Below the pieces are notes generated by a model that saw nothing but the letters and a program-made list of their open reading frames with translations, did no database searches and had not been told where the DNA came from. Source: Streptomyces sp. NBC_00568 (lineage in GTDB: Bacteria; Actinomycetota; Actinomycetes; Streptomycetales; Streptomycetaceae). From it: a stretch of DNA of 64,000 bases. Below are positions 3,753-21,478 of the stretch, piece by piece. How positions within the stretch are numbered: the first letter of the stretch is position 1; every line of letters starts with the position of its first letter. The position numbers and the translations under genes were made by a program. Location of the stretch: NCBI RefSeq assembly GCF_026341855.1, contig NZ_JAPENW010000001.1:6005001-6069000 (forward strand), in the 5' to 3' direction.

Positions 3753-3824
3753 GGGCGATTAGCTCAGCGGGAGAGCGCTTCGTTCACACCGAAGAGGTCA
3801 CTGGTTCGAACCCAGTATCGCCCA
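3753..3824 (+). tRNA. tRNA-Val(CAC), copy 1
   Basis: A complete cloverleaf of 72 bases. The acceptor stem GGGCGAT (3753-3759) pairs with ATCGCCC (3817-3823), followed by discriminator A. The anticodon stem CTTCG/CGAAG encloses loop TTCACAC, giving anticodon CAC, which reads GTG valine codons. The T-arm contains GGTTCGAACCC. CCA is not encoded. It differs from the copy at 15235 by one base in the D-loop region (CAGCGGG against CAGTGGG). Confidence 0.96.
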
Positions 3825-3837
3825 CACATCCGACAGA

Positions 3838-5150: not shown

Positions 5151-5436
5151 GAGCGCGGACGGTCCGCGTCCCACCTCCCCGGTATCAACGCCCCGGCATG
5201 AACACCCCCGACATCAACCCCCCCACCCATCACGCTCCGTTCCCATGCCCGACGCCAACACCCGCTACAGCAGTACCTTTTCGGCCGCGTTCGCGCACAG
5301 CCTCATCGTCGGAGAATTGTTCGACGGGTCGACCGCGCGCGCTCGACCTGCGTACTCCTGTTCGCCTGCGCCGATGTCACCGCGCAGGCCGGCGCGACGG
5401 GATCGAAGCGCCGCACATCAATTCCTGTCCGAATCA

Positions 5437-5465
5437 TTGACGCGCCCGAAAGCCCTCCGTACCTT
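5437..5465 (+). promoter_or_regulatory. Sigma-70-type promoter of the sugar operon
   Basis: TTGACG (5437-5442) is followed after exactly 17 bases by TACCTT (5460-5465), a good match to the HrdB class of Streptomyces. The start point would fall near 5472, inside the operator-like sequences. The first gene starts 60 bases downstream. Confidence 0.6.
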
Positions 5466-5473
5466 GTGCCAGC

Positions 5474-5496
5474 AAGCGCTTACTTGAAACGATTCA
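5474..5496. promoter_or_regulatory. LacI-family operator-like palindromes
   Basis: Two short inverted repeats lie side by side: AAGCGCTT (5474-5481), with the CG centre common in LacI-family sites, and TGAAACGATTCA (5485-5496), which resembles cre-like operators. They overlap the predicted transcription start, the usual place for repression. No LacI-type gene lies in the window, so the regulator would be encoded elsewhere. Confidence 0.5.
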
Positions 5497-5531
5497 TGCA
5501 GGCGGCGACGACGTTGCGGGGAGGCCCGACT

Positions 5532-6821
5532 GTGGGAAACAACGGGAGTGTCGAGAGGCGGACGGTCCTCAAGGCCGCCGGAGCTTCGCTGGCCACGCTG
5601 GGGCTGGCAGCGGCGACCGGGTGCGGTGGGGACAGTGATGGCGCCGGGGACGGGACGGTGACGATCCGTTATGCCTGGTGGGGTGCGGACGAGCGGGCGA
5701 AGCGGATCAACCAGTCCATCGCGCTCTTCGAGAAGAAGTACCCGAAGATCAAGGTGAAGACGGACTTCCAGGATTATGTGGCCTTCTGGGAGAAGTTCCA
5801 GACGCAGGCCGCCGGCGGAAATCCGCCGGACGTATTCCAGAACGCCGTCGGATTTCTGCGGAAGTACGACAAGCGAGGGATCCTGCTCGACCTCAAGTCC
5901 CAGATAGACGCCGGAAATCTCAGCCTGGAGAACTTTCGCGCCGGAGTCGAGAAGGTCGGTCAGGTCGACGGAAAACAGCTCGGTATTCCCGTCGGATCCA
6001 ACACCATGTCACTTGTCATCGACGAGAAGGTGTTCGAGAAGGCCGGCATCAAGGCGAAGCAGGGCTGGACCTGGGACGAGTACTTCGCCGCGCTCAAGAA
6101 GATTCACGACGGCGAGAAGACGGCGGGCGACACCGGCTACTTCAGCATCATGTATTTGTATGACCTCTATCTTCGGCAGAACGGCAAGGCGTTCTTCACC
6201 GAGGACGGACTCGGTTTCGACGAGGCCGATCTGACGGAGTGGTGGACCGACGGCTACAACCGCGTCAAGGCCGGCATCATCACCGATCCCAAGCGGGTCG
6301 AGCAGGACAAGCCCAAGTCCTCGCTCTCGGCGGGCCACGCCGCCTCCGAGTTCACCTGGGACAACTTCACCGTCCGCTACACGGCGGAGGGCGACAGCAG
6401 TTACGGTCTGGCGCCGATCCCGACGACCGACGGCAAGCAGACCGGCCAGTACCTCGCCTCCCTGATGCTCAGCGCCTCCGCGCGCACCAAGCACCCCAAG
6501 GAAGTCGCCCAGTTCATCGACTTCATGGTCCACGACCCCGAGGTCGGCAAGATCATGGGCTACGACCGCGGCATCCTCGCGACCACCGAGCAGTACGAGG
6601 CGTTCAAGCCGGCCGACGCCCCCAGCAAGGCCATCGCGCAGTACGAGCAGGATGTCGCCGCGGCCGGCGTGCTCGGCACGATCACCCCGCACCCCGCCGG
6701 CGCCGACACGGTCGAATCCGCCTTCCTGCGCATCGGCGGTGACATGTCGCAGGGCACCACCAAGGTCTCCGACGCGGTGAAGCAGTTCTTCTCCGAGGCG
6801 AAGACCGCCCTCGCCGTCTGA
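5532..6821 (+). CDS. Sugar ABC transporter substrate-binding lipoprotein
   Basis: A 429-residue extracytoplasmic solute-binding protein of family 1. Start is a GTG at 5532, with GGGGAGG (5518-5524) in front. The N-terminus ERRTVLKAAGASLATLG carries a twin-arginine motif (R9, R10) and a lipobox ending at Cys31 (AATGC), so it is probably a Tat-exported lipoprotein. After the signal comes the usual first strand VTIRYAWWGADERAKRI, an ERKY-type helix (FEKKYPKIKVKTDFQDY) and the hinge region. It is the first gene of an operon whose permeases overlap it. With the downstream YesL and YetA-like genes, the likely ligand is a rhamnogalacturonan-derived oligosaccharide; that substrate is inferred from context only. 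Confidence 0.9.
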   Translation: MGNNGSVERRTVLKAAGASLATLGLAAATGCGGDSDGAGDGTVTIRYAWWGADERAKRINQSIALFEKKYPKIKVKTDFQDYVAFWEKFQTQAAGGNPPDVFQNAVGFLRKYDKRGILLDLKSQIDAGNLSLENFRAGVEKVGQVDGKQLGIPVGSNTMSLVIDEKVFEKAGIKAKQGWTWDEYFAALKKIHDGEKTAGDTGYFSIMYLYDLYLRQNGKAFFTEDGLGFDEADLTEWWTDGYNRVKAGIITDPKRVEQDKPKSSLSAGHAASEFTWDNFTVRYTAEGDSSYGLAPIPTTDGKQTGQYLASLMLSASARTKHPKEVAQFIDFMVHDPEVGKIMGYDRGILATTEQYEAFKPADAPSKAIAQYEQDVAAAGVLGTITPHPAGADTVESAFLRIGGDMSQGTTKVSDAVKQFFSEAKTALAV

Positions 6822-12204: not shown

Positions 12205-14631
12205 CTAGCCCATCCTCCCCAGCACCTCCCGCACTCGCCGTGCGTCACGGATCCGCTGCTCGTACGTGGCACCCAGCGCGAGCAGCACCAGACCGGCGAG
12301 TGCGGGAGGCATCCACCGGGGGAGCGCGTCCACCACCTGCACGATGTACGGGGCGAGTTCGTGCAGGGCGTCCAGCGCGAGCACGCTGCCGCCCAGCACC
12401 AGCGGAGCCTGCAGGCGGTGCCGGGCACCCAGCAGGGTGACGGCGAGCGCCGCCGCGCCCAGCAGCAGCGGGCGCTGCCAGTACGCGTCGCCCCATGCCG
12501 CGAGGAGACTCGGCACGAGCGTCACGGACAGCCCCGGAGCGTACGCCGTCCACGACGACACCGCTGTGTCCCGGCGGCGCCGGAGCGCGCCCACGAGCAG
12601 CGCCGGAACGGTCACCGGCAGTGTGTACGCCTCCGGGGAGCCGACACCCCAGGCCGCCAGCCGCACCCAGGCGGCCATCACGAACAGCGCGGTGGCCGCG
12701 TAGCCCACAGGGCGCCGGTCCTCCCGTACGGCCGTGCCCGCGGCGATCACCCCGCACAGGGCCAGGACCGTGGCGAGCATGGCCGGATCGGTGACCGTGA
12801 GCGCCACGGCGACGAGCCCCGCGACGGCACCGGTGACCTCGACCGACACCCTCGTCGGCACGTCGTCGACGCGCGCAGCCGACAGGGCCGCGACCACGGG
12901 CACCACCAGCACGAGCAGCGCGATGTGCTGGGGCTGCCAGCCGAGGGAGGTGCCCGTCGCGCAGGCGAGGGCCGTGGCGTACCCGAGCGAGGCGGGCGCC
13001 GCGACCGGGCCGGGGCCGGGCCGCAGGGCGGCGGCCGCGAACAGGGCGGTCAGGGCGGCGAGCACCGTCAGGGTCGCGGGCTCGGAGGCCAGCGCGAGGA
13101 ACGCGAGGCTGAGGGAGGTGAGGAGCGCGAGCACCAGTGGCGCCGGCTGGGGCTGCGTCCGCCGGGCGTACACGAGCAGGGCCACCGTCGTGAGTCCGTG
13201 TGCGGACAGACCGACCAGGTAAGGGAGTTCGAGGGTCGCCGGGAGGACGAACACCGTCGCCCACGTCAGTGTCAGCGCGCAGACCAGGGCCCGGGGACGC
13301 CACTCGGCGGCGCGGACGGCCACGATCAGGACCGCGGCGACGAGCGCCAGAACGAGCGGTGCCGTGCCCGCGTCCGGGGGCCAGGGCAGATCGCCGGCCA
13401 CCGCGTCGCGCGCGGTCGCCGGAGCACCCGACCAGACCGGATGCACCAGGCCGACCGGCCCCAGCAGGGTGATCACGACCACGGGCAGCGCCCACGCCAC
13501 GGCGAGGGCCTGCACACAGCCGGACGCCAGAGCGACCCCACGGCGTACCGGCTCGGGAAGTCCCGTCCGTACGACGGCCAACAGGGCTATCCCGCACGCC
13601 AGATGACCGGGAACCGTCCACTCCCCGGGCAGGGACGTGCGCAGCACGCCGCCGAACGCGACGACGGTGATCAGCCCCCCGGCCGTCGCGGTACCCGTCG
13701 CGACGCCCGGCTTCGGGGCGCCCCACGCCGCGGTCAGGGCGATCGACGCGGCAAGGAGGAGGAGCGCCGCCGCACGGGCGGCGGCGCTCGGGCCGGCGGC
13801 CGTCCAGGACAGCCAGCCGGCGGCGAAGGTGCCCCAGCCGCCCAGGCCGTACGCCCCGGCGGCGGCGACGACGCGGACGGACTTCGGGGGCATGCGCAGG
13901 GCGAGCACCGCGTCGAACGCCGCCGTGACCAGCAGGGCGGCCGTGATGGCGTGGGCACCCGCGGCGGCGGCCACCGCCCACAGGAGCAGCGGGAACTGCG
14001 CGGCGACCACGGCGGCGGGCAGGGGCAGCCGCAGCGGTACCCGCACTCCGGTGCCGGCCGCCTGCCGTCCCCTGTCGGTGGCGGCCGTCCGCGCCTCCGT
14101 CGTCCGGTGGACGGCGCCCACCGCGAGTCCGTACGCCGCCCATACGGCGGCCAGCACCGCCGACGCCATCGCCGTGTAGCCGAGGCCGTCCGTGCGGGGG
14201 AGCGCGACCGCGTACAGCGCGTACGCGTCCAGGACCGTCAGGGCGAGGCCGAGCCCCGCCAGCGACTCGGCGGTCGAGCGCAGCCCGCGTCGCAGCAGGA
14301 GCACGGGCGCGCCGAGCGCGGCCAGCGTCACCGTGCCGAGCACCAGCGACCGGCCGGTGATCCCCAGGTGGCCCCATCCGACCAGCGTGAACGCGACGGC
14401 GGCGATGGTCAGCAGGATGCCGCCGAGGAGCAGCAGCACGTTCTGCACACCGGGTGCCGTGGCCTCCGGCCGGCGGGTCGCGGGTGCCGGGGGCGGGGTC
14501 CATACCGGCGGCCGGAGCGCGTGCATCAGCCAGGCGCGGCGGGTCAGCAACACGGTGCGGCGCGCGTCGAGTTGCCGCAGCTCGGCGTCGAGGAGCCGCA
14601 ACTCCTCGGCCGGAGACGGGATCTGGGTCAT
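12205..14631 (-). CDS. Large polytopic membrane protein, SCO7613 C-terminal domain-like
   Basis: An 808-residue protein made almost entirely of hydrophobic Ala/Leu/Val spans, perhaps twenty or more. Ahead of them is a cytoplasmic N-terminal helix (SPAEELRLLDAELRQLDARR, then LLTRRAWLMHAL). This arrangement is found in a family of Streptomyces integral membrane proteins labelled SCO7613 C-terminal domain-containing. No transport signature is visible and the function is unknown. I chose the ATG at 14631, where CCGGAG lies very close upstream; an ATG at 14667 would add 12 residues. Its stop is only 7 bases from the stop of the convergent lyase gene, leaving no room for a terminator between them. 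Confidence 0.7.
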   Translation of the reverse strand: MTQIPSPAEELRLLDAELRQLDARRTVLLTRRAWLMHALRPPVWTPPPAPATRRPEATAPGVQNVLLLLGGILLTIAAVAFTLVGWGHLGITGRSLVLGTVTLAALGAPVLLLRRGLRSTAESLAGLGLALTVLDAYALYAVALPRTDGLGYTAMASAVLAAVWAAYGLAVGAVHRTTEARTAATDRGRQAAGTGVRVPLRLPLPAAVVAAQFPLLLWAVAAAAGAHAITAALLVTAAFDAVLALRMPPKSVRVVAAAGAYGLGGWGTFAAGWLSWTAAGPSAAARAAALLLLAASIALTAAWGAPKPGVATGTATAGGLITVVAFGGVLRTSLPGEWTVPGHLACGIALLAVVRTGLPEPVRRGVALASGCVQALAVAWALPVVVITLLGPVGLVHPVWSGAPATARDAVAGDLPWPPDAGTAPLVLALVAAVLIVAVRAAEWRPRALVCALTLTWATVFVLPATLELPYLVGLSAHGLTTVALLVYARRTQPQPAPLVLALLTSLSLAFLALASEPATLTVLAALTALFAAAALRPGPGPVAAPASLGYATALACATGTSLGWQPQHIALLVLVVPVVAALSAARVDDVPTRVSVEVTGAVAGLVAVALTVTDPAMLATVLALCGVIAAGTAVREDRRPVGYAATALFVMAAWVRLAAWGVGSPEAYTLPVTVPALLVGALRRRRDTAVSSWTAYAPGLSVTLVPSLLAAWGDAYWQRPLLLGAAALAVTLLGARHRLQAPLVLGGSVLALDALHELAPYIVQVVDALPRWMPPALAGLVLLALGATYEQRIRDARRVREVLGRMG

Positions 14632-14748
14632 ACTCCGGAGTGTGGTGCCGGTCACGTCGCCGGGCATGAGTGCGCGTACTCACGCCGTACTCAGATCGGC
14701 GGACGGGTGCCGTCGGTACCTCCGTGCGCCGCTGGGAAGGCTCGTTCC

Positions 14749-15195
14749 ATGGACTGGACCCACTACCGCTTCCACAGCGTCTGGGAGCTGCCCGCGCCTC
14801 CCGCGGACGTGTACACGGTCCTGGAGCGGGCCGAGAACTACCCGCGCTGGTGGCCCCAGGTGCGGGAGGTGACCCGCGTGGACGACGACACCGGCGTCAT
14901 CCGGGTCCGCTCGGTCCTGCCGTACGACATCACCTTCACCGCCGGCGCGGTCCGCCGGGACCCGGTGGCCGGCGTCCTGGAGATCGCGATGTCCGGCGAC
15001 CTCGACGGCTGGGCACGCTGGACCTTCGACGCGACCGGTCCGGGCACCCGTGCCCGGTACGACCAGGAAGTGCGCGTGACCACGCCGCTGCTGCGGCGGC
15101 TCGCCGTGCCGGGACGCCCGTTCTTCCGCGCCAACCACGCCTTGATGATGCGCGCGGGACGGCGCGGGCTGAGGGCCCATCTCGAAGCGGTTTGA
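14749..15195 (+). CDS. SRPBCC family (polyketide cyclase/START-like) protein
   Basis: A 148-residue protein with the helix-grip pattern. A first strand YRFHSVWELPAPPADVYTVL is followed by ENYPRWWPQVREV, the hallmark W-P motif after the first helix. Alternating strands follow, then a long C-terminal helix (FFRANHALMMRAGRRGLRAH). Such proteins bind hydrophobic ligands in a central cavity, but no catalytic residues can be assigned. It lies divergent to the membrane protein gene and directly upstream of the second tRNA-Val. Confidence 0.85.
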   Translation: MDWTHYRFHSVWELPAPPADVYTVLERAENYPRWWPQVREVTRVDDDTGVIRVRSVLPYDITFTAGAVRRDPVAGVLEIAMSGDLDGWARWTFDATGPGTRARYDQEVRVTTPLLRRLAVPGRPFFRANHALMMRAGRRGLRAHLEAV

Positions 15196-15234
15196 ACCCC
15201 ACCCGCCGGGACCTGTATTGTTCAGTCCGTTCCC

Positions 15235-15306
15235 GGGCGATTAGCTCAGTGGGAGAGCGCTTCGTTCACACCGAAGAGGTCACTGGTTCGAACCCAGTAT
15301 CGCCCA
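15235..15306 (+). tRNA. tRNA-Val(CAC), copy 2
   Basis: Same 72-base cloverleaf as copy 1: acceptor stem GGGCGAT/ATCGCCC, anticodon loop TTCACAC, T-loop GGTTCGAACCC, no encoded CCA. One D-loop base differs from copy 1. Flanking sequence is unrelated to that of copy 1 apart from two or three bases, so the repeat is the tRNA itself. Confidence 0.96.
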
Positions 15307-15316
15307 CCCGGAGAAG

Positions 15317-15350
15317 ACCGGTCCGTCACCGACGGACCGGTTTTTTGTTT
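15317..15350 (+). terminator. Intrinsic terminator after tRNA-Val copy 2
   Basis: A perfect 11-bp stem ACCGGTCCGTC/GACGGACCGGT with an ACC loop, followed by TTTTTTG. It begins 11 bases after the tRNA and is a textbook rho-independent terminator. Confidence 0.92.
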
Positions 15351-15371
15351 GTTCGCGGGCATCGCGCCTGA

Positions 15372-16097
15372 TCAGGCCGCCGCCGGCAGATCCGGGCGCA
15401 GAGGCCACGCCGGATCCACCGCTTCCGGTGCACCGCTGCGCGCGAACCAGGCCTGCAGCCCGCGCGCCTGTGCCGCGTGCCACACCGCCTGGAGCGTGTG
15501 CAGCTCGGACGGCGACAACCGTTCCAGACGCGCCGAGAAACGGCGCCCCACCGCACGGACGAGCTCCAGCGAGGCCAGCGCGTCGGCCGCCGCGTCGTGC
15601 GCGCCCTCCAGCGCCACGTCGTAGTGCGCGCACAGATCGGTCAGGGTGCGGCGGCCCTTGCGATAGCGGTCCAGATGTTTGTCGAGGACGCGGGGATCGA
15701 GCACGCGCAGCGACGCCGACTCGAACCAGTGGTCGAGGGACGAGGCGCGATGCCTGCGCAACTCCCGGTCCAGCAGCGTCAGATCGAACGGGGCGTTCAT
15801 CACCACGAGCGGGCGGCCCGCCGCGGCCTGTTCGCCCAGTTCCCGGGCTATCTCCTCCATGACGGGCGACGGCCAGCGGCCGTTGCGCTGCAGATGTTCG
15901 TCCGTGAGCCCGTGCACCGCCGTCGCCCCCGCGGGCACCGGCACTCCCGGGTTCACCAGCCATCGGGTCACCCTCGGACGGGCACCCGCGGCGTCCTGGA
16001 CGACGACGGCGGCCGACACGATCCTGTCGGTCTCGACGTCCACGCCCGTGGTCTCCGTGTCGAACGCGGCCAAAGGGCCCTCGTACCAGCACGTCAT
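15372..16097 (-). CDS. DnaQ-like 3'-5' exonuclease (DEDD family)
   Basis: A 241-residue protein with GAGGAG about 9 bases before the ATG. The three exonuclease motifs are in order. Exo I is FDTETTGVD (Asp13, Glu15). Exo II is NAPFDLTLL with its Asp near residue 105. Exo III is HDAAADA near 165-171, the DEDDh form. The family includes the proofreading subunit of DNA polymerase III and RNase T. Without a polymerase domain, this is a stand-alone exonuclease whose substrate (DNA or RNA) cannot be told. It is divergent from the DUF4365 gene. Confidence 0.88.
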   Translation of the reverse strand: MTCWYEGPLAAFDTETTGVDVETDRIVSAAVVVQDAAGARPRVTRWLVNPGVPVPAGATAVHGLTDEHLQRNGRWPSPVMEEIARELGEQAAAGRPLVVMNAPFDLTLLDRELRRHRASSLDHWFESASLRVLDPRVLDKHLDRYRKGRRTLTDLCAHYDVALEGAHDAAADALASLELVRAVGRRFSARLERLSPSELHTLQAVWHAAQARGLQAWFARSGAPEAVDPAWPLRPDLPAAA

Positions 16098-16267
16098 ACG
16101 TACACAACTCCTCGTTCACCCACGGCAGCTGACGCTCCGTCTTCTGCCCGTTTGGTGATACCCGGGCTGTTTGCGCCGTACGCCGGAAGGAGACAACAGA
16201 GGTACGGGTCTTTGCAGTTCAGCGACCCGTCGCGGGGATACACCAAGCCTGGAAGGCTGTTGGACTC

Positions 16268-16834
16268 ATGGCACTCGCGCAGCCCGAACGGGGCGGGCTG
16301 CTGCCCCAGCGGACGGCACCCCATCGCGGATCGCTCGCCACCACCGCCTGCATGGAGACCTTGCAGGTGGGCTACCTGCACGCCGTCGCGGCGGCCGCGG
16401 GCTGTTCGCTGTCCCAGCCGTTTCCGGACAACGGCATCGACTGGCACGTCAGCCACAGCGCCCCCGGGCACACGGTCGACGACGAGGTCACCATCAAGGT
16501 GCAGCTCAAGTGCACGTACCAGATACCGCCCAATCCTCCGGGGCCCGCCTTCTCCTTCACGCTCGACAACGAGCACCTGGCGAAGCTGGCGCGCACCCCG
16601 GTCTCGGTGCACAAGATCCTCGTCGTGATGCTCGTGCCCAGATCCCAGGACGACTGGCTGCGCGCCAGCCACGACCGGCTCGACCTGCGGCACTGCTGCT
16701 ACTGGATCAACCTCGCCGGGCACGCCATCACGGGCCGTCGCCGGACCACCGTCCGCATCCCGACGGCCCGGATCTTCGACGACCGGGCCCTCTGCGAGAT
16801 CATGACGAGGGTCGGGACGGGAGGCAGACCATGA
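16268..16834 (+). CDS. DUF4365 (PD-(D/E)XK nuclease-like) protein
   Basis: A 188-residue protein with GGAAGG upstream of the ATG. The order Glu30 (METLQVGYLHAVAAAAG), Asp58 (DNGIDWHV) and QLK (Gln79, Lys81; IKVQLKCTY) matches the E...D...QxK pattern of DUF4365, a domain with the restriction-endonuclease fold. In active members the Asp, Gln/Glu and Lys bind metal. The second half has the segment SQDDWLRASHDRLDLRHCCY, then YWINLAGH, typical of the family. The last codons overlap the next gene (ATGA), so the two are made together. Whether it cuts nucleic acid is unknown. Confidence 0.75.
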   Translation: MALAQPERGGLLPQRTAPHRGSLATTACMETLQVGYLHAVAAAAGCSLSQPFPDNGIDWHVSHSAPGHTVDDEVTIKVQLKCTYQIPPNPPGPAFSFTLDNEHLAKLARTPVSVHKILVVMLVPRSQDDWLRASHDRLDLRHCCYWINLAGHAITGRRRTTVRIPTARIFDDRALCEIMTRVGTGGRP

Positions 16835-18048
16835 CACACCGCCCGATCGACGAGGTGCTCCGGCCGGTCAGGCCGCACCCCGCCGAAGCCTTCTGGAACG
16901 ATCCGCCGACCCCCGACCAGGTCGACCCCGCCGTCCTCGGAGCGCTGCTCCGTCGGCACGGCTGGCAGCGCCGCGGGGGAGCGGCCGGACGGTACGGCCG
17001 ATGGACCCCACCCGGGCCCGGGGGCGGCGGCACCAGCCTGCTGGTGCCGGAGAACCGGGCCTTCCCCGACAGCGACGACCTCCTCGGCGAGGCCCTCGTC
17101 GCGCTCGCCCGCAGCGCCTCCCCGTCCGCCCGTGACGTGCTCGTCGCCCTCGCCGTGCCCAGCGACGAGATCCGCTGGTGGCGGGATGTGCCGACCGGTC
17201 CCGCGGGCGCCGCGCCCTGGACCGTCGAGGAGCAGCTGCGCGGCGCCGCCCGCCAGATGCTGCTCGCGGGCGCCCTCGCCACGCGCGCGCGTGCCGGCTA
17301 CTACGGCGCCCGCCACCGCAGGTCCGCCGCGGCCTCCCTGGAGAACGTCCTGGTCGGCGCCGAACCGAGCGGCCGCCGCCTCACCGCCTTCGTGCCCGTG
17401 GCCACCGGCCGGCCGCTCGCCGTACGCCTGCACGAGGCACTGTGCGCCGCCCGCGAGGCCATCGACTACCAGCGGGCCACCGGTGGCATGGAGGCCTTCG
17501 ACGCGGCCGTCGAGGCGGGCGTCAGCCATGAGCTGATGGAAGCCCTGGTGGCCCTCGTCCGCGGCACCGAGGGCGCCCGGATCGCTGTCGAGTGGTCGCC
17601 CGCCGCGGGCGTCCCCGAGGGCGGCGCGAACCCCGCGGAACCCGTCGAGTTCTCGCCCGGTGACCTGCCCGTGCTGCGCGAGGCCGGGGCCCGCTATCTG
17701 CGCGAGGAGCCGTCCGTGCCCGTGCGCGTCACCGGCGCCGTGGTCCGGATGCGCAGGTCGGGCCCGCGCGGGGCGGGCACCGTACGGCTGCGGGTCATCG
17801 CGGGCGCCGAGGTCCCGCACGTCCGGATGACCCTCGACGAGGAGGCGTACCGGATAGCGGGCCAGGCCCATCTGGTCGGACTGCCGGTGCGGGTGCACGG
17901 GCGGCTGGAGAGCCGCGGCGGCTTCCGCAGGCTCACGGACGCCTCCGGCGTCGTCCCCGTGCAGGTCGACGAGGCCGAGCGGGACCGGCTGATGAAGTCG
18001 CTCCAGGAGAATCTGGACTTCTTCGAGGAGGCGTGCAGCGAGGACTGA
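16831..18048 (+). CDS. Conserved protein of unknown function coupled to the DUF4365 gene (405 aa)
   Basis: Translation starts inside the stop of the DUF4365 gene. The protein has no signal peptide or spans and is rich in Arg, Ala and Glu. I do not recognise the family. The N-terminal half is mostly helical ([20 protein letters not shown], then [19 protein letters not shown]). The C-terminal part, about residues 285-390, alternates strands around [14 protein letters not shown], then [20 protein letters not shown] and [13 protein letters not shown]. That is reminiscent of an OB-like beta-barrel, though this is only a pattern impression. Its pairing with a nuclease-like gene is the best clue to function. 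Confidence 0.75.
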
Positions 18049-18161
18049 GGGGGCGCTGTCCACAACCGTTTCGCGGAGGACACCCCGGGCTCGGTAGGAT
18101 TCGGGGCATTGCCATGCCATGCCGTATGTGGTGTGGAGTTCCCTTCAGTCAGGAGAGTCCG

Positions 18162-20138
<1,977 letters not shown>

Positions 20139-20176
20139 TCCGCAGGGGTCCGTACCCCCGCGTTCCGTACGCGGTC

Positions 20177-20213
20177 AGAAGCCCCCGGGAAGCTCAGCTC
20201 CCCGGGGGCTTCT
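20177..20213. terminator. Bidirectional terminator between thrS and the potassium channel gene
   Basis: A perfect 13-bp stem AGAAGCCCCCGGG/CCCGGGGGCTTCT with an 11-base loop. It lies 39 bases after the thrS stop and also covers the last codons of the convergent channel gene, whose TGA falls in the loop. Confidence 0.88.
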
Positions 20214-20850
20214 CGTCGCCCTCGCGCGCGAACACCTGCAACAGCCACGAGGAGAACGAGCCCGTCACCGCGCCGAGCAGCGCCAGACCGCACACCATCA
20301 TGGCGACCGCGATCGTGCGACCCTTCGGCGTCACCGGCGCCACGTCCCCGTACCCCACCGTCGAGAGCGTGGAGGCGGCCCACCACACCGAGTCACCGAA
20401 GGTGACGATCGTCGCGTGCGGTGCCTGGTACTCGGCCTGGTAGACGGCGAGGGCACCCGCGAAACCGAGCAGCAGTACCGCGATGCTCGCGTAGAACATC
20501 ACCCGCGCGTACAGCGGGAGGCGAGGCTCTCCGCGGCGCCGCAGCACGGCGTCGTAGAGCTTGACCATGCGCAGTGGCCGCAGCAGCGGCAGGACGAGCA
20601 CCACGGTGTCCAGCCCGTGGCTCGGGACGAACCGGAGGCCCTGGCCGCTCAGCCGCCACAGCACCAGGTAGTCGACGAGGAACGCCGCCCAGGTGAGCAT
20701 GATCACCGCGAGGCAGGCGTCCCGCCCCGCCTGGGGCAGACCGTGCGCCAGCACGAGGACCGCGTAGGCGGAGAGGAACAGCAGTGACGCGACCGCCAGT
20801 GGTACCTCGGTGCGCTGCTCCCAGCGGGTCATCGGGCTGTCGTCGTCCAT
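20194..20850 (-). CDS. Two-pore-type potassium channel with N-terminal transmembrane helices
   Basis: A 218-residue membrane protein. Two N-terminal spans (LAVASLLFLSAYAVLVLAHG; CLAVIMLTWAAFLVDYLVLW) are followed by an S4-like segment with spaced Arg/Lys (LLRPLRMVKLYDAVLRRRG). Then come a span, the pore helix and the selectivity filter STVGYGDVAP at about residues 153-162, and a final span. The TVGYGD signature identifies it as a K+ channel of the ion-transport-2 class. No cytoplasmic RCK/TrkA-N domain follows, so gating ligands are unknown. Its final codons are formed by the shared terminator hairpin. Confidence 0.9.
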   Translation of the reverse strand: MDDDSPMTRWEQRTEVPLAVASLLFLSAYAVLVLAHGLPQAGRDACLAVIMLTWAAFLVDYLVLWRLSGQGLRFVPSHGLDTVVLVLPLLRPLRMVKLYDAVLRRRGEPRLPLYARVMFYASIAVLLLGFAGALAVYQAEYQAPHATIVTFGDSVWWAASTLSTVGYGDVAPVTPKGRTIAVAMMVCGLALLGAVTGSFSSWLLQVFAREGDEKPPGS

Positions 20851-20917
20851 GGCCCCAGCTTCGCCGCATGCCCCTTTGTGTGACACCCGCCGACACGCCG
20901 CGAACGGGCGAAGCAAT

Positions 20918-21478
20918 ATGCTGCAACACATGACGAGTGAGCCGGAGCAGCAGATCGGAGTGGGAACGCAGGACGCGTTCCAGCGCCTTTGGACGCCCCA
21001 CCGGATGGCTTACATCCAGGGCGAGAACAAGCCCACCGGCCCGGGGGCCGACGACGGTTGTCCCTTCTGCTCGATTCCGGCCAAGTCCGATGAGGACGGG
21101 CTGATCGTCAGGCGCGGGGAGCAGGTCTACGCGGTGCTCAACCTCTACCCGTACAACGGTGGGCACCTGATGGTCGTGCCCTACCGTCACGTCGCCGACT
21201 ACACGGACCTCACCGCCCCGGAGACGGCCGAACTCGGTGAGCTGACCAAGCAGGCCATGACCGCCCTGCGCACCGCCTCCGGCGCCCATGGATTCAACAT
21301 CGGCATGAACCAGGGCACCGTCGCGGGCGCGGGCATCGCCGCCCATCTGCACCAGCACATCGTCCCCCGCTGGGGCGGCGACACCAACTTCATGCCGGTC
21401 GTCGGCCACACCAAGGTCCTGCCGCAACTCCTCGCGGACACCCGCAAGATGCTGGCGGAGGCCTGGCCCACCGCGTAG
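20918..21478 (+). CDS. HIT domain protein (histidine triad nucleotide hydrolase/phosphorylase)
   Basis: A 186-residue protein whose C-terminal half contains the histidine triad AHLHQHIVPRW near residues 141-151. An upstream CPFC (ADDGCPFCSIP) and the NLYPYNGGHLMVVPYRH strand are typical of actinobacterial HIT enzymes related to Ap4A phosphorylase. These act on dinucleoside polyphosphates or AMP-linked substrates; the exact substrate is not evident. Start could be ATG 20918 or ATG 20930, neither with a strong ribosome site. It is divergent from the channel gene across less than 70 bases. Confidence 0.88.
   Translation: MLQHMTSEPEQQIGVGTQDAFQRLWTPHRMAYIQGENKPTGPGADDGCPFCSIPAKSDEDGLIVRRGEQVYAVLNLYPYNGGHLMVVPYRHVADYTDLTAPETAELGELTKQAMTALRTASGAHGFNIGMNQGTVAGAGIAAHLHQHIVPRWGGDTNFMPVVGHTKVLPQLLADTRKMLAEAWPTA

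Follow-up and report, generated by a model that had tools for sequence, protein, structure and literature searches.

What does a small nuclease-like gene in a Streptomyces chromosome do with the larger gene that overlaps its end and that no standard family describes, and do the two belong together at all? In the window, i.e., the whole stretch of 64,000 nucleotides analysed here, the two genes (hereafter A and B) and their immediate neighbours are arranged as follows:

15372..16097, minus strand: DnaQ-family exonuclease gene (PRK07942, E 1.5e-90), a neighbour outside the unit that persists where the pair is lost
16268..16834, plus strand: gene A, 188 aa, DUF4365/DREN-type PD-(D/E)XK nuclease family (PF14280; PADLOC PDC-M02A, PDLC04276)
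16831..16834, plus strand: ATGA start/stop overlap of A and B, seen in the sequence
16831..18048, plus strand: gene B, the 405-aa partner (PADLOC PDC-M02B, PDLC04317, E 4.2e-188)
18033..20138, plus strand: open reading frame of thrS, a neighbour outside the unit, downstream in 80/80 named loci

A first-pass annotation of this DNA had proposed a coupled pair, a candidate for an undescribed two-gene system, with a divergent DnaQ exonuclease next door. The coordinates of both reading frames, their ATGA overlap and the DnaQ-family neighbour are as it gave them, and the coupling recurs: 77 of the 79 named Streptomyces loci with both genes (from the best 80 of 506 B matches) share the 4-nt overlap. 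The system is not undescribed, however, as both genes match the PADLOC-DB candidate PDC-M02 near full length (A, E 1.5e-94; B, E 4.2e-188), likewise as adjacent and overlapping genes. A full-text literature search, with most subscription papers and preprints outside its reach, found no paper naming PDC-M02 and no DUF4365 paper with DISARM in its title; a preprint (PMC12458937) that deals, in its accessible part, with YprA-family helicase systems, DISARM among them, is not one of the DUF4365 papers found. New here are the placement of the pair at a core chromosomal site, its embedding in DISARM loci, a natural deletion series of B and the survival of B without A. PF14280 and B each have a single match in the source genome (4 contigs, completeness 82.6%), namely the genes of this pair.

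Gene A matches PF14280 (DUF4365, equivalent to DREN) with E 2.6e-21 and 76.6 bits against a Pfam cut-off of 24.3; the match spans residues 34–181 and is the only one in Pfam up to E 1. The nuclease-type residues that had been pointed out in the first gene are conserved as D54-x-G56-x-D58...Q79-x-K81, invariant across the 32 rows of our alignment A6, and are encoded at:

16427..16441, plus strand: codons D54-N-G56-I-D58, nuclease motif
16502..16510, plus strand: codons Q79-L-K81, nuclease motif

Of 95 core-site A sequences (the window, 79 named loci from the best 80 of 506, and 15 others), 93 carry the motif; A genes already known to be broken were excluded from this count. One of the two misses is a gene cut by a contig end (L011). 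The other (L140, genome G444, 5276–5839) is a full-length A with D54, Q79 and K81 replaced beside an open B, probably a dead nuclease retained in frame. The accessible parts of three papers describe D41, Q60 and K62 as catalytic in the NbaSPARDA DREN domain (PMC12205087), Q62/K64 as active residues in TmuRE (PMC10810196) and DxGxD...QxK in EAT16 (PMC11297309). Gene A thus shares family and D...QxK residues with the DREN-APAZ proteins that accompany short prokaryotic Argonautes in SPARDA, but it is a free-standing DREN without APAZ. A predicted model of A was poor (pLDDT 40 with 32 close rows as input). Foldseek against the PDB placed chains of SPARDA complexes in the 12 top rows (best E 3.9e-4), which from their length appear to be DREN-APAZ chains, followed by Hjc resolvases; since the model is of low confidence, these rows are supportive only. 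In the part of PMC12205087 available, DREN alone is a monomer of undetectable activity and becomes active as a tetramer on a filament, seen with ssDNA bound. Because that DREN shows no detectable activity alone and is switched on by tetramerisation, A should, by analogy, need a partner.

The candidate partner, B, can be divided into three parts:

16906..17166, plus strand: N-module (residues ~26–112), found in the A-bearing M02 forms read and absent from an A-less Streptomyces clade
17167..17706, plus strand: middle part (residues ~113–292), mostly helical in the model, missing from the short B of cyanobacteria
17707..17970, plus strand: predicted OB fold (residues ~293–380), from Foldseek rows of SSB and RPA and from VIA Z

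Profile searches of the 405-aa protein returned PDC-M02B and, in Pfam and NCBIfam, no family above cut-off; PDB sequence searches gave no credible relative. The predicted model of B is of moderate quality (pLDDT 72.6, pTM 0.54, 73 rows) and consists of an alpha/beta part at the N terminus, a helical middle and, at the C terminus, an OB fold, in keeping with the earlier guess of an OB-like barrel at the end of the second gene. Foldseek retrieved mycobacterial and streptomycete SSB and RPA (E ~1e-2, probability 1.0), and VIA gave Z 10.0 for SilF, 9.0 for SSBb of M. smegmatis and 8.9 for S. coelicolor SSB, although models that match nothing clearly also reach values of 8–10 not infrequently. The OB fold alone compares with those of SSB, PriB, RPA and RecO at Z ~8–9; B differs from these proteins in lacking a Pfam family match and in carrying the predicted fold as a single domain within a longer chain. 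The N-module and the middle were barely probed by the fold search, its list being taken up by OB rows. In contrast to SPARDA, there is no Pfam Piwi match at E 0.1 in B or 18 relatives, and the flanks are a dnaQ-like gene and thrS instead of a short Argonaute (MID-PIWI). In a viral library searched with full-length B, Q6NE06 of Leptospira phage LE1 stands out (E 1.2e-13, 409 columns, query TM 0.37). The predicted alpha-beta-beta-beta-alpha order and a GW...P pattern had brought up a HicA- or dsRBD-like N-module, which was dropped: a 13-row N profile picked up the HicA chains 4c26_A (E 0.86) and 6g26_E (E 1.6), but in hhalign three HicA rows aligned out of register (3 of 6 loci yielded a row) and a wider 22-row profile lost HicA.

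Relatives of B lack one part or another and so provide a natural deletion series. On cyanobacterial plasmids B is short, with 175–180 aa (11 were read, and 17 plasmid records reach a coverage of at least 80%). In hhalign it aligns with the N-module (E 1.7e-17) and with the OB part (E 1.5e-14) but not with the middle; an initial reading as the N-module alone was rejected on the OB match. Seven of the 11 overlap an annotated DUF4365 gene, three (L167, L168, L171) stand beside a broken A, and one (L175) has none. Three order relatives (L180–L182) carry A, and their B has matches to N (4.5e-17) and to the middle (9.6e-17) but none to OB; it ends at the identical residue in all three, and no OB part was found just downstream. 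In each of these, an open reading frame of 184–187 aa, by eye similar to a class I SAM methyltransferase, follows B by at most 5 nt. Five Streptomyces loci (L086, L087, L088, L090 and L179) have no recognisable A, and their B begins at about residue 112, leaving middle and OB; the first four group in the B tree with support 94 (not starred), and L179 shares their junction. A-bearing forms of B thus occur as N+middle+OB, N+OB and N+middle, so of the three parts only the N-module recurs in all A-bearing M02 forms read, and the sole form without N is also without A. From this distribution the N-module would be the A-linked part of B. Against a strict tie, N persists in L083 and L085/L089, which have no intact A. 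The four forms, N+middle+OB, N+OB, N+middle and middle+OB, are the set that a biochemist would construct.

Our preferred reading, to which we assign a probability of about 0.5, is that B is a modular controller of A that senses exposed nucleic acid, that mobile copies act against invaders and that B has an additional role independent of A. Gene A would be a DREN-type PD-(D/E)XK nuclease, probably idle alone as its SPARDA counterpart is. The N-module would link B to A, and the OB fold, aided by the helical middle, would bind single-stranded or otherwise exposed nucleic acid, gather A there and activate it; recruitment and activation follow from the tie of N to the presence of A together with an OB fold of a kind that often binds single strands. 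In accessory copies the nucleic acid could be exposed by, e.g., DISARM helicases, and mobile copies, whether carried by plasmids and prophages or embedded in DISARM- and Druantia-like loci, would act against invading DNA. In Streptomycetaceae one copy would have become a long-standing chromosomal locus beside thrS, where B may also be useful without A. The starting points of this reading (nuclease family and residues, coupling, OB fold, defence neighbourhoods, deletion series and selection on B) are drawn from sequence, and from them we infer A-B binding, activation, ligand and role.

An A-independent role is suggested by selection on B where A has decayed. We placed the observed base changes at random on the same sequence in 2000 runs and compared the numbers of nonsynonymous changes; controls in the +1 frame displayed no depletion. 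Between L087 and L090, both without A and N, 17 of 65 changes in B are nonsynonymous vs. 48.7 expected (0/2000 runs as low; 48 changes at third positions). Between L085 and L089, in which A is scrap, B has 33 of 72 vs. 54.5 expected (0/2000 as low) and thrS 25 vs. 56.9, whereas the A scrap looks neutral (18 of 26 vs. 19.6; 585/2000). Within this B, the N-module has 2 nonsynonymous changes vs. 8.7 expected, and the OB part looks less constrained (10 vs. 13.2). As N is constrained in L085/L089 without a working A, it is not only a dock for A, which weakens the idea of N as a pure dock. In the A-bearing loci L094/L095, B is hardly constrained (215 of 307 vs. 226.3; 59/2000 as low). Judged by these substitution patterns, B is sometimes under purifying selection after loss of A. 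The loci L083–L102 were chosen because A was missed or B odd, and are not a random sample.

The same observations are what one would look for in a toxin-antitoxin or addiction module, in which A is a toxic DNase, B its antidote, and B is retained against incoming copies of A. Persistence of B in several lineages after decay of A fits this explanation, as do the copies on plasmids and in prophages. So do Tolypothrix plasmids with a broken A and an intact short B (11 of 28 nonsynonymous vs. 20.0; 3/2000), where part of the short-B divergence may be older than the loss of A, and a Calothrix plasmid whose short B has no A upstream. Two further core loci have an open B with a damaged A (in L100 the first 68 residues of A were not found; in L141 A lies in two frames). 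However, in four core loci (L091, L099, L143 and L144) A is intact and B frameshifted. Unless the frameshifts are sequencing errors, as they may be, these loci argue against a strict toxin-antitoxin reading; a homopolymer of at least 5 nt occurs at the break in L144 only. Furthermore, an OB fold and a size of 405 aa are unusual for an antitoxin. The related DREN domain is undetectably active alone according to the accessible part of PMC12205087, which also counts against this explanation. On balance we consider addiction rather unlikely and retain B as a controller of A.

How the pair came to lie beside thrS can be read from its distribution. The 80 top-ranking of 506 B matches in named genomes all come from Streptomyces, the closest 96% identical; A accompanies B in 79 of these 80 loci, and the dnaQ-like gene in 78. 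In the one locus without A (L050) the record starts at a contig end that lies within B. When core and accessory matches are taken together, B occurs in 130 of 150 genus genomes, 80 of 121 family genomes (13 of 17 genera, 11 of them at E 1e-130 or better) and 68 of 80 order genomes, mostly weakly outside the family. Across the phylum, another M02B profile matched 12 of 296 genomes, seven of the same genus and five with weak partial matches. The latter (G158, G199, G223, G336 and G368) are weak matches to the OB region of B inside open frames of more than 1200 aa, and the five genomes all belong to one family of the phylum. DUF4365 genes of any kind occur in 121/150 genus, 83/121 family and 11/296 phylum genomes, including genes without an M02B neighbour.

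In seven other genera of the family that were read (L140–L144, L148–L150), thrS also adjoins the pair. At 16 core sites read the pair is gone, with both flanks kept at 14 and one at L122 (a contig end) and L146; scraps of A or B remain at five of the 16 (L122, L123, L125, L145, L146). For the 20 genus genomes without a B match, reading of the core site depended on a close dnaQ-like match that gave its position. Counts of lost A, B or pair exclude L092 and L142 (drafts whose neighbouring genes are frameshifted as well), L101/L102 (B split between two contig ends) and L084 and L133 (cut by contig ends). The presence of the pair beside thrS across the family and its absence from 16 sites indicate an old resident of this site that has often been lost; since the flanks persist after its loss, dnaQ and thrS are independent of it. 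By gene order and sequence, then, the pair is a long-standing Streptomycetaceae locus beside thrS, lost many times, and the DnaQ gene, which the first-pass annotation had noted next door, is a mere neighbour.

The true start of thrS, on our inference, is probably near 18162. The thrS genes of L003, L042 and L049 are 81–82% identical to that of the window while A and dnaQ nearby are 88–98% identical, which suggests that thrS was replaced by transfer in these genomes. As the thrS tree was poorly supported and thrS identity between loci odd, the B tree was used instead. Two tRNA-Val (cac) genes lie at 3753–3825 and 15235–15308 of the window, the second adjoining the dnaQ-like gene; Rfam found nothing but tRNA-Val over 14000–21000, and a scan of the locus for promoters and terminators was empty.

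Such a position would also suit a Streptomycetaceae pair with a housekeeping task in DNA repair or recombination, perhaps in concert with the DnaQ-like exonuclease or at stalled forks. Besides the thrS-side locus in the genus and seven further genera read, this explanation is favoured by strong constraint on A (2 of 24 differences nonsynonymous vs. 18.1 expected), the likeness of the OB fold in the B model to those of SSB, PriB and RecO, and the Hjc resolvases that rank after the SPARDA rows for A. It is difficult to reconcile with loss of the pair from 16 read core sites that kept one or both flanks, with 20 of 150 genus genomes without any B match, and with relatives in DISARM and on mobile elements. 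We therefore regard housekeeping repair as unlikely and return to the controller reading, for which those relatives are informative.

A DUF4365 gene adjoins B in all 24 accessory streptomycete loci read (L093, L103–L120, L147, L151–L154; it is short in L110 and L111, and L121, in fragments, was excluded); outside this set lie eleven further accessory places and some unlisted second B matches in genus genomes. DISARM (drm) genes were found by tblastn in 9 of the 24. The pair has a GmrSD-like gene on one side and drmD-drmMI on the other in L107, L108 and L109, and it adjoins drmA-drmB in L113, L115, L116, L117, L153 and L154; PADLOC profiles identified DrmA, DrmD and DrmMI (E 0), DrmB (1.9e-80) and DrmC (4.2e-77) in L115 and L109. 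L110 retains GmrSD and UvrD genes with a DrmMI remnant and is thus a DISARM remnant. The pair of L119 adjoins DruE (PADLOC E 0), and in an order relative (L183) a DruE homologue lies ~4.6 kb from the pair. For the remaining 13 of the 24, the queries used revealed neither DISARM genes nor DruE next to the pair; two of them (L114, L118) carry a HerA-like helicase. While some accessory pairs adjoin class 1 DISARM or Druantia genes, i.e., YprA-family helicase systems, A and B are not core genes of these.

The core copy differs from such settings. With drm proteins from accessory loci as tblastn queries (E 1e-10), no drmA, drmB, drmC, drmD or drmMI was found in the 64-kb window or five core loci, and none of the drm, GmrSD, UvrD and HerA neighbours searched for occurs in the window or these loci. 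The earlier proposal that the set could handle damaged or foreign nucleic acid agrees with the accessory copies embedded in DISARM- and Druantia-like loci; near the core copy none of the defence genes searched for was found.

Beyond Streptomycetaceae the pair is found on plasmids of Gluconobacter, Tistrella, Phaeobacter, Paenarthrobacter, Entomospira and Nostocales, and on plasmids of Methylobacterium and Caballeronia with A recognised by eye. In a Mycobacterium abscessus prophage record it constitutes genes 1 and 2, and a second M. abscessus prophage record of equal length gives the same accessory-B match. Phage records gave no match with the B of the window, and scans of viral contigs gave no close relatives. 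In a more far-reaching version, which we regard as possible but doubtful, PDC-M02 would be a modular immune platform across phyla, with N as the socket for a DREN nuclease and the middle and OB parts as exchangeable sensors, gained or lost in different phyla; Streptomycetaceae would have domesticated one copy into a chromosomal locus for nucleic-acid surveillance, and a sensor with a second job would survive alone in some lineages, even without its socket. In any case, a predicted antiviral pair for which we found no published function is a long-standing locus in a family of great practical use, and it allows the control of a DREN nuclease in the absence of an Argonaute, and the possible turn of defence modules into housekeeping genes, to be tested directly.

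Some individual mobile or distant copies have settings of their own. On a Streptomyces aurantiacus plasmid (L162) the pair lies ~2 kb from a type I-E cas3. In Pigmentibacter, B occurs with no DUF4365 gene in the upstream stretch read. On plasmid p28 of Entomospira culicis (L178) the pair adjoins two DUF262 (GmrSD-type) genes, and the accessory loci L107–L110 likewise have a GmrSD-like neighbour.
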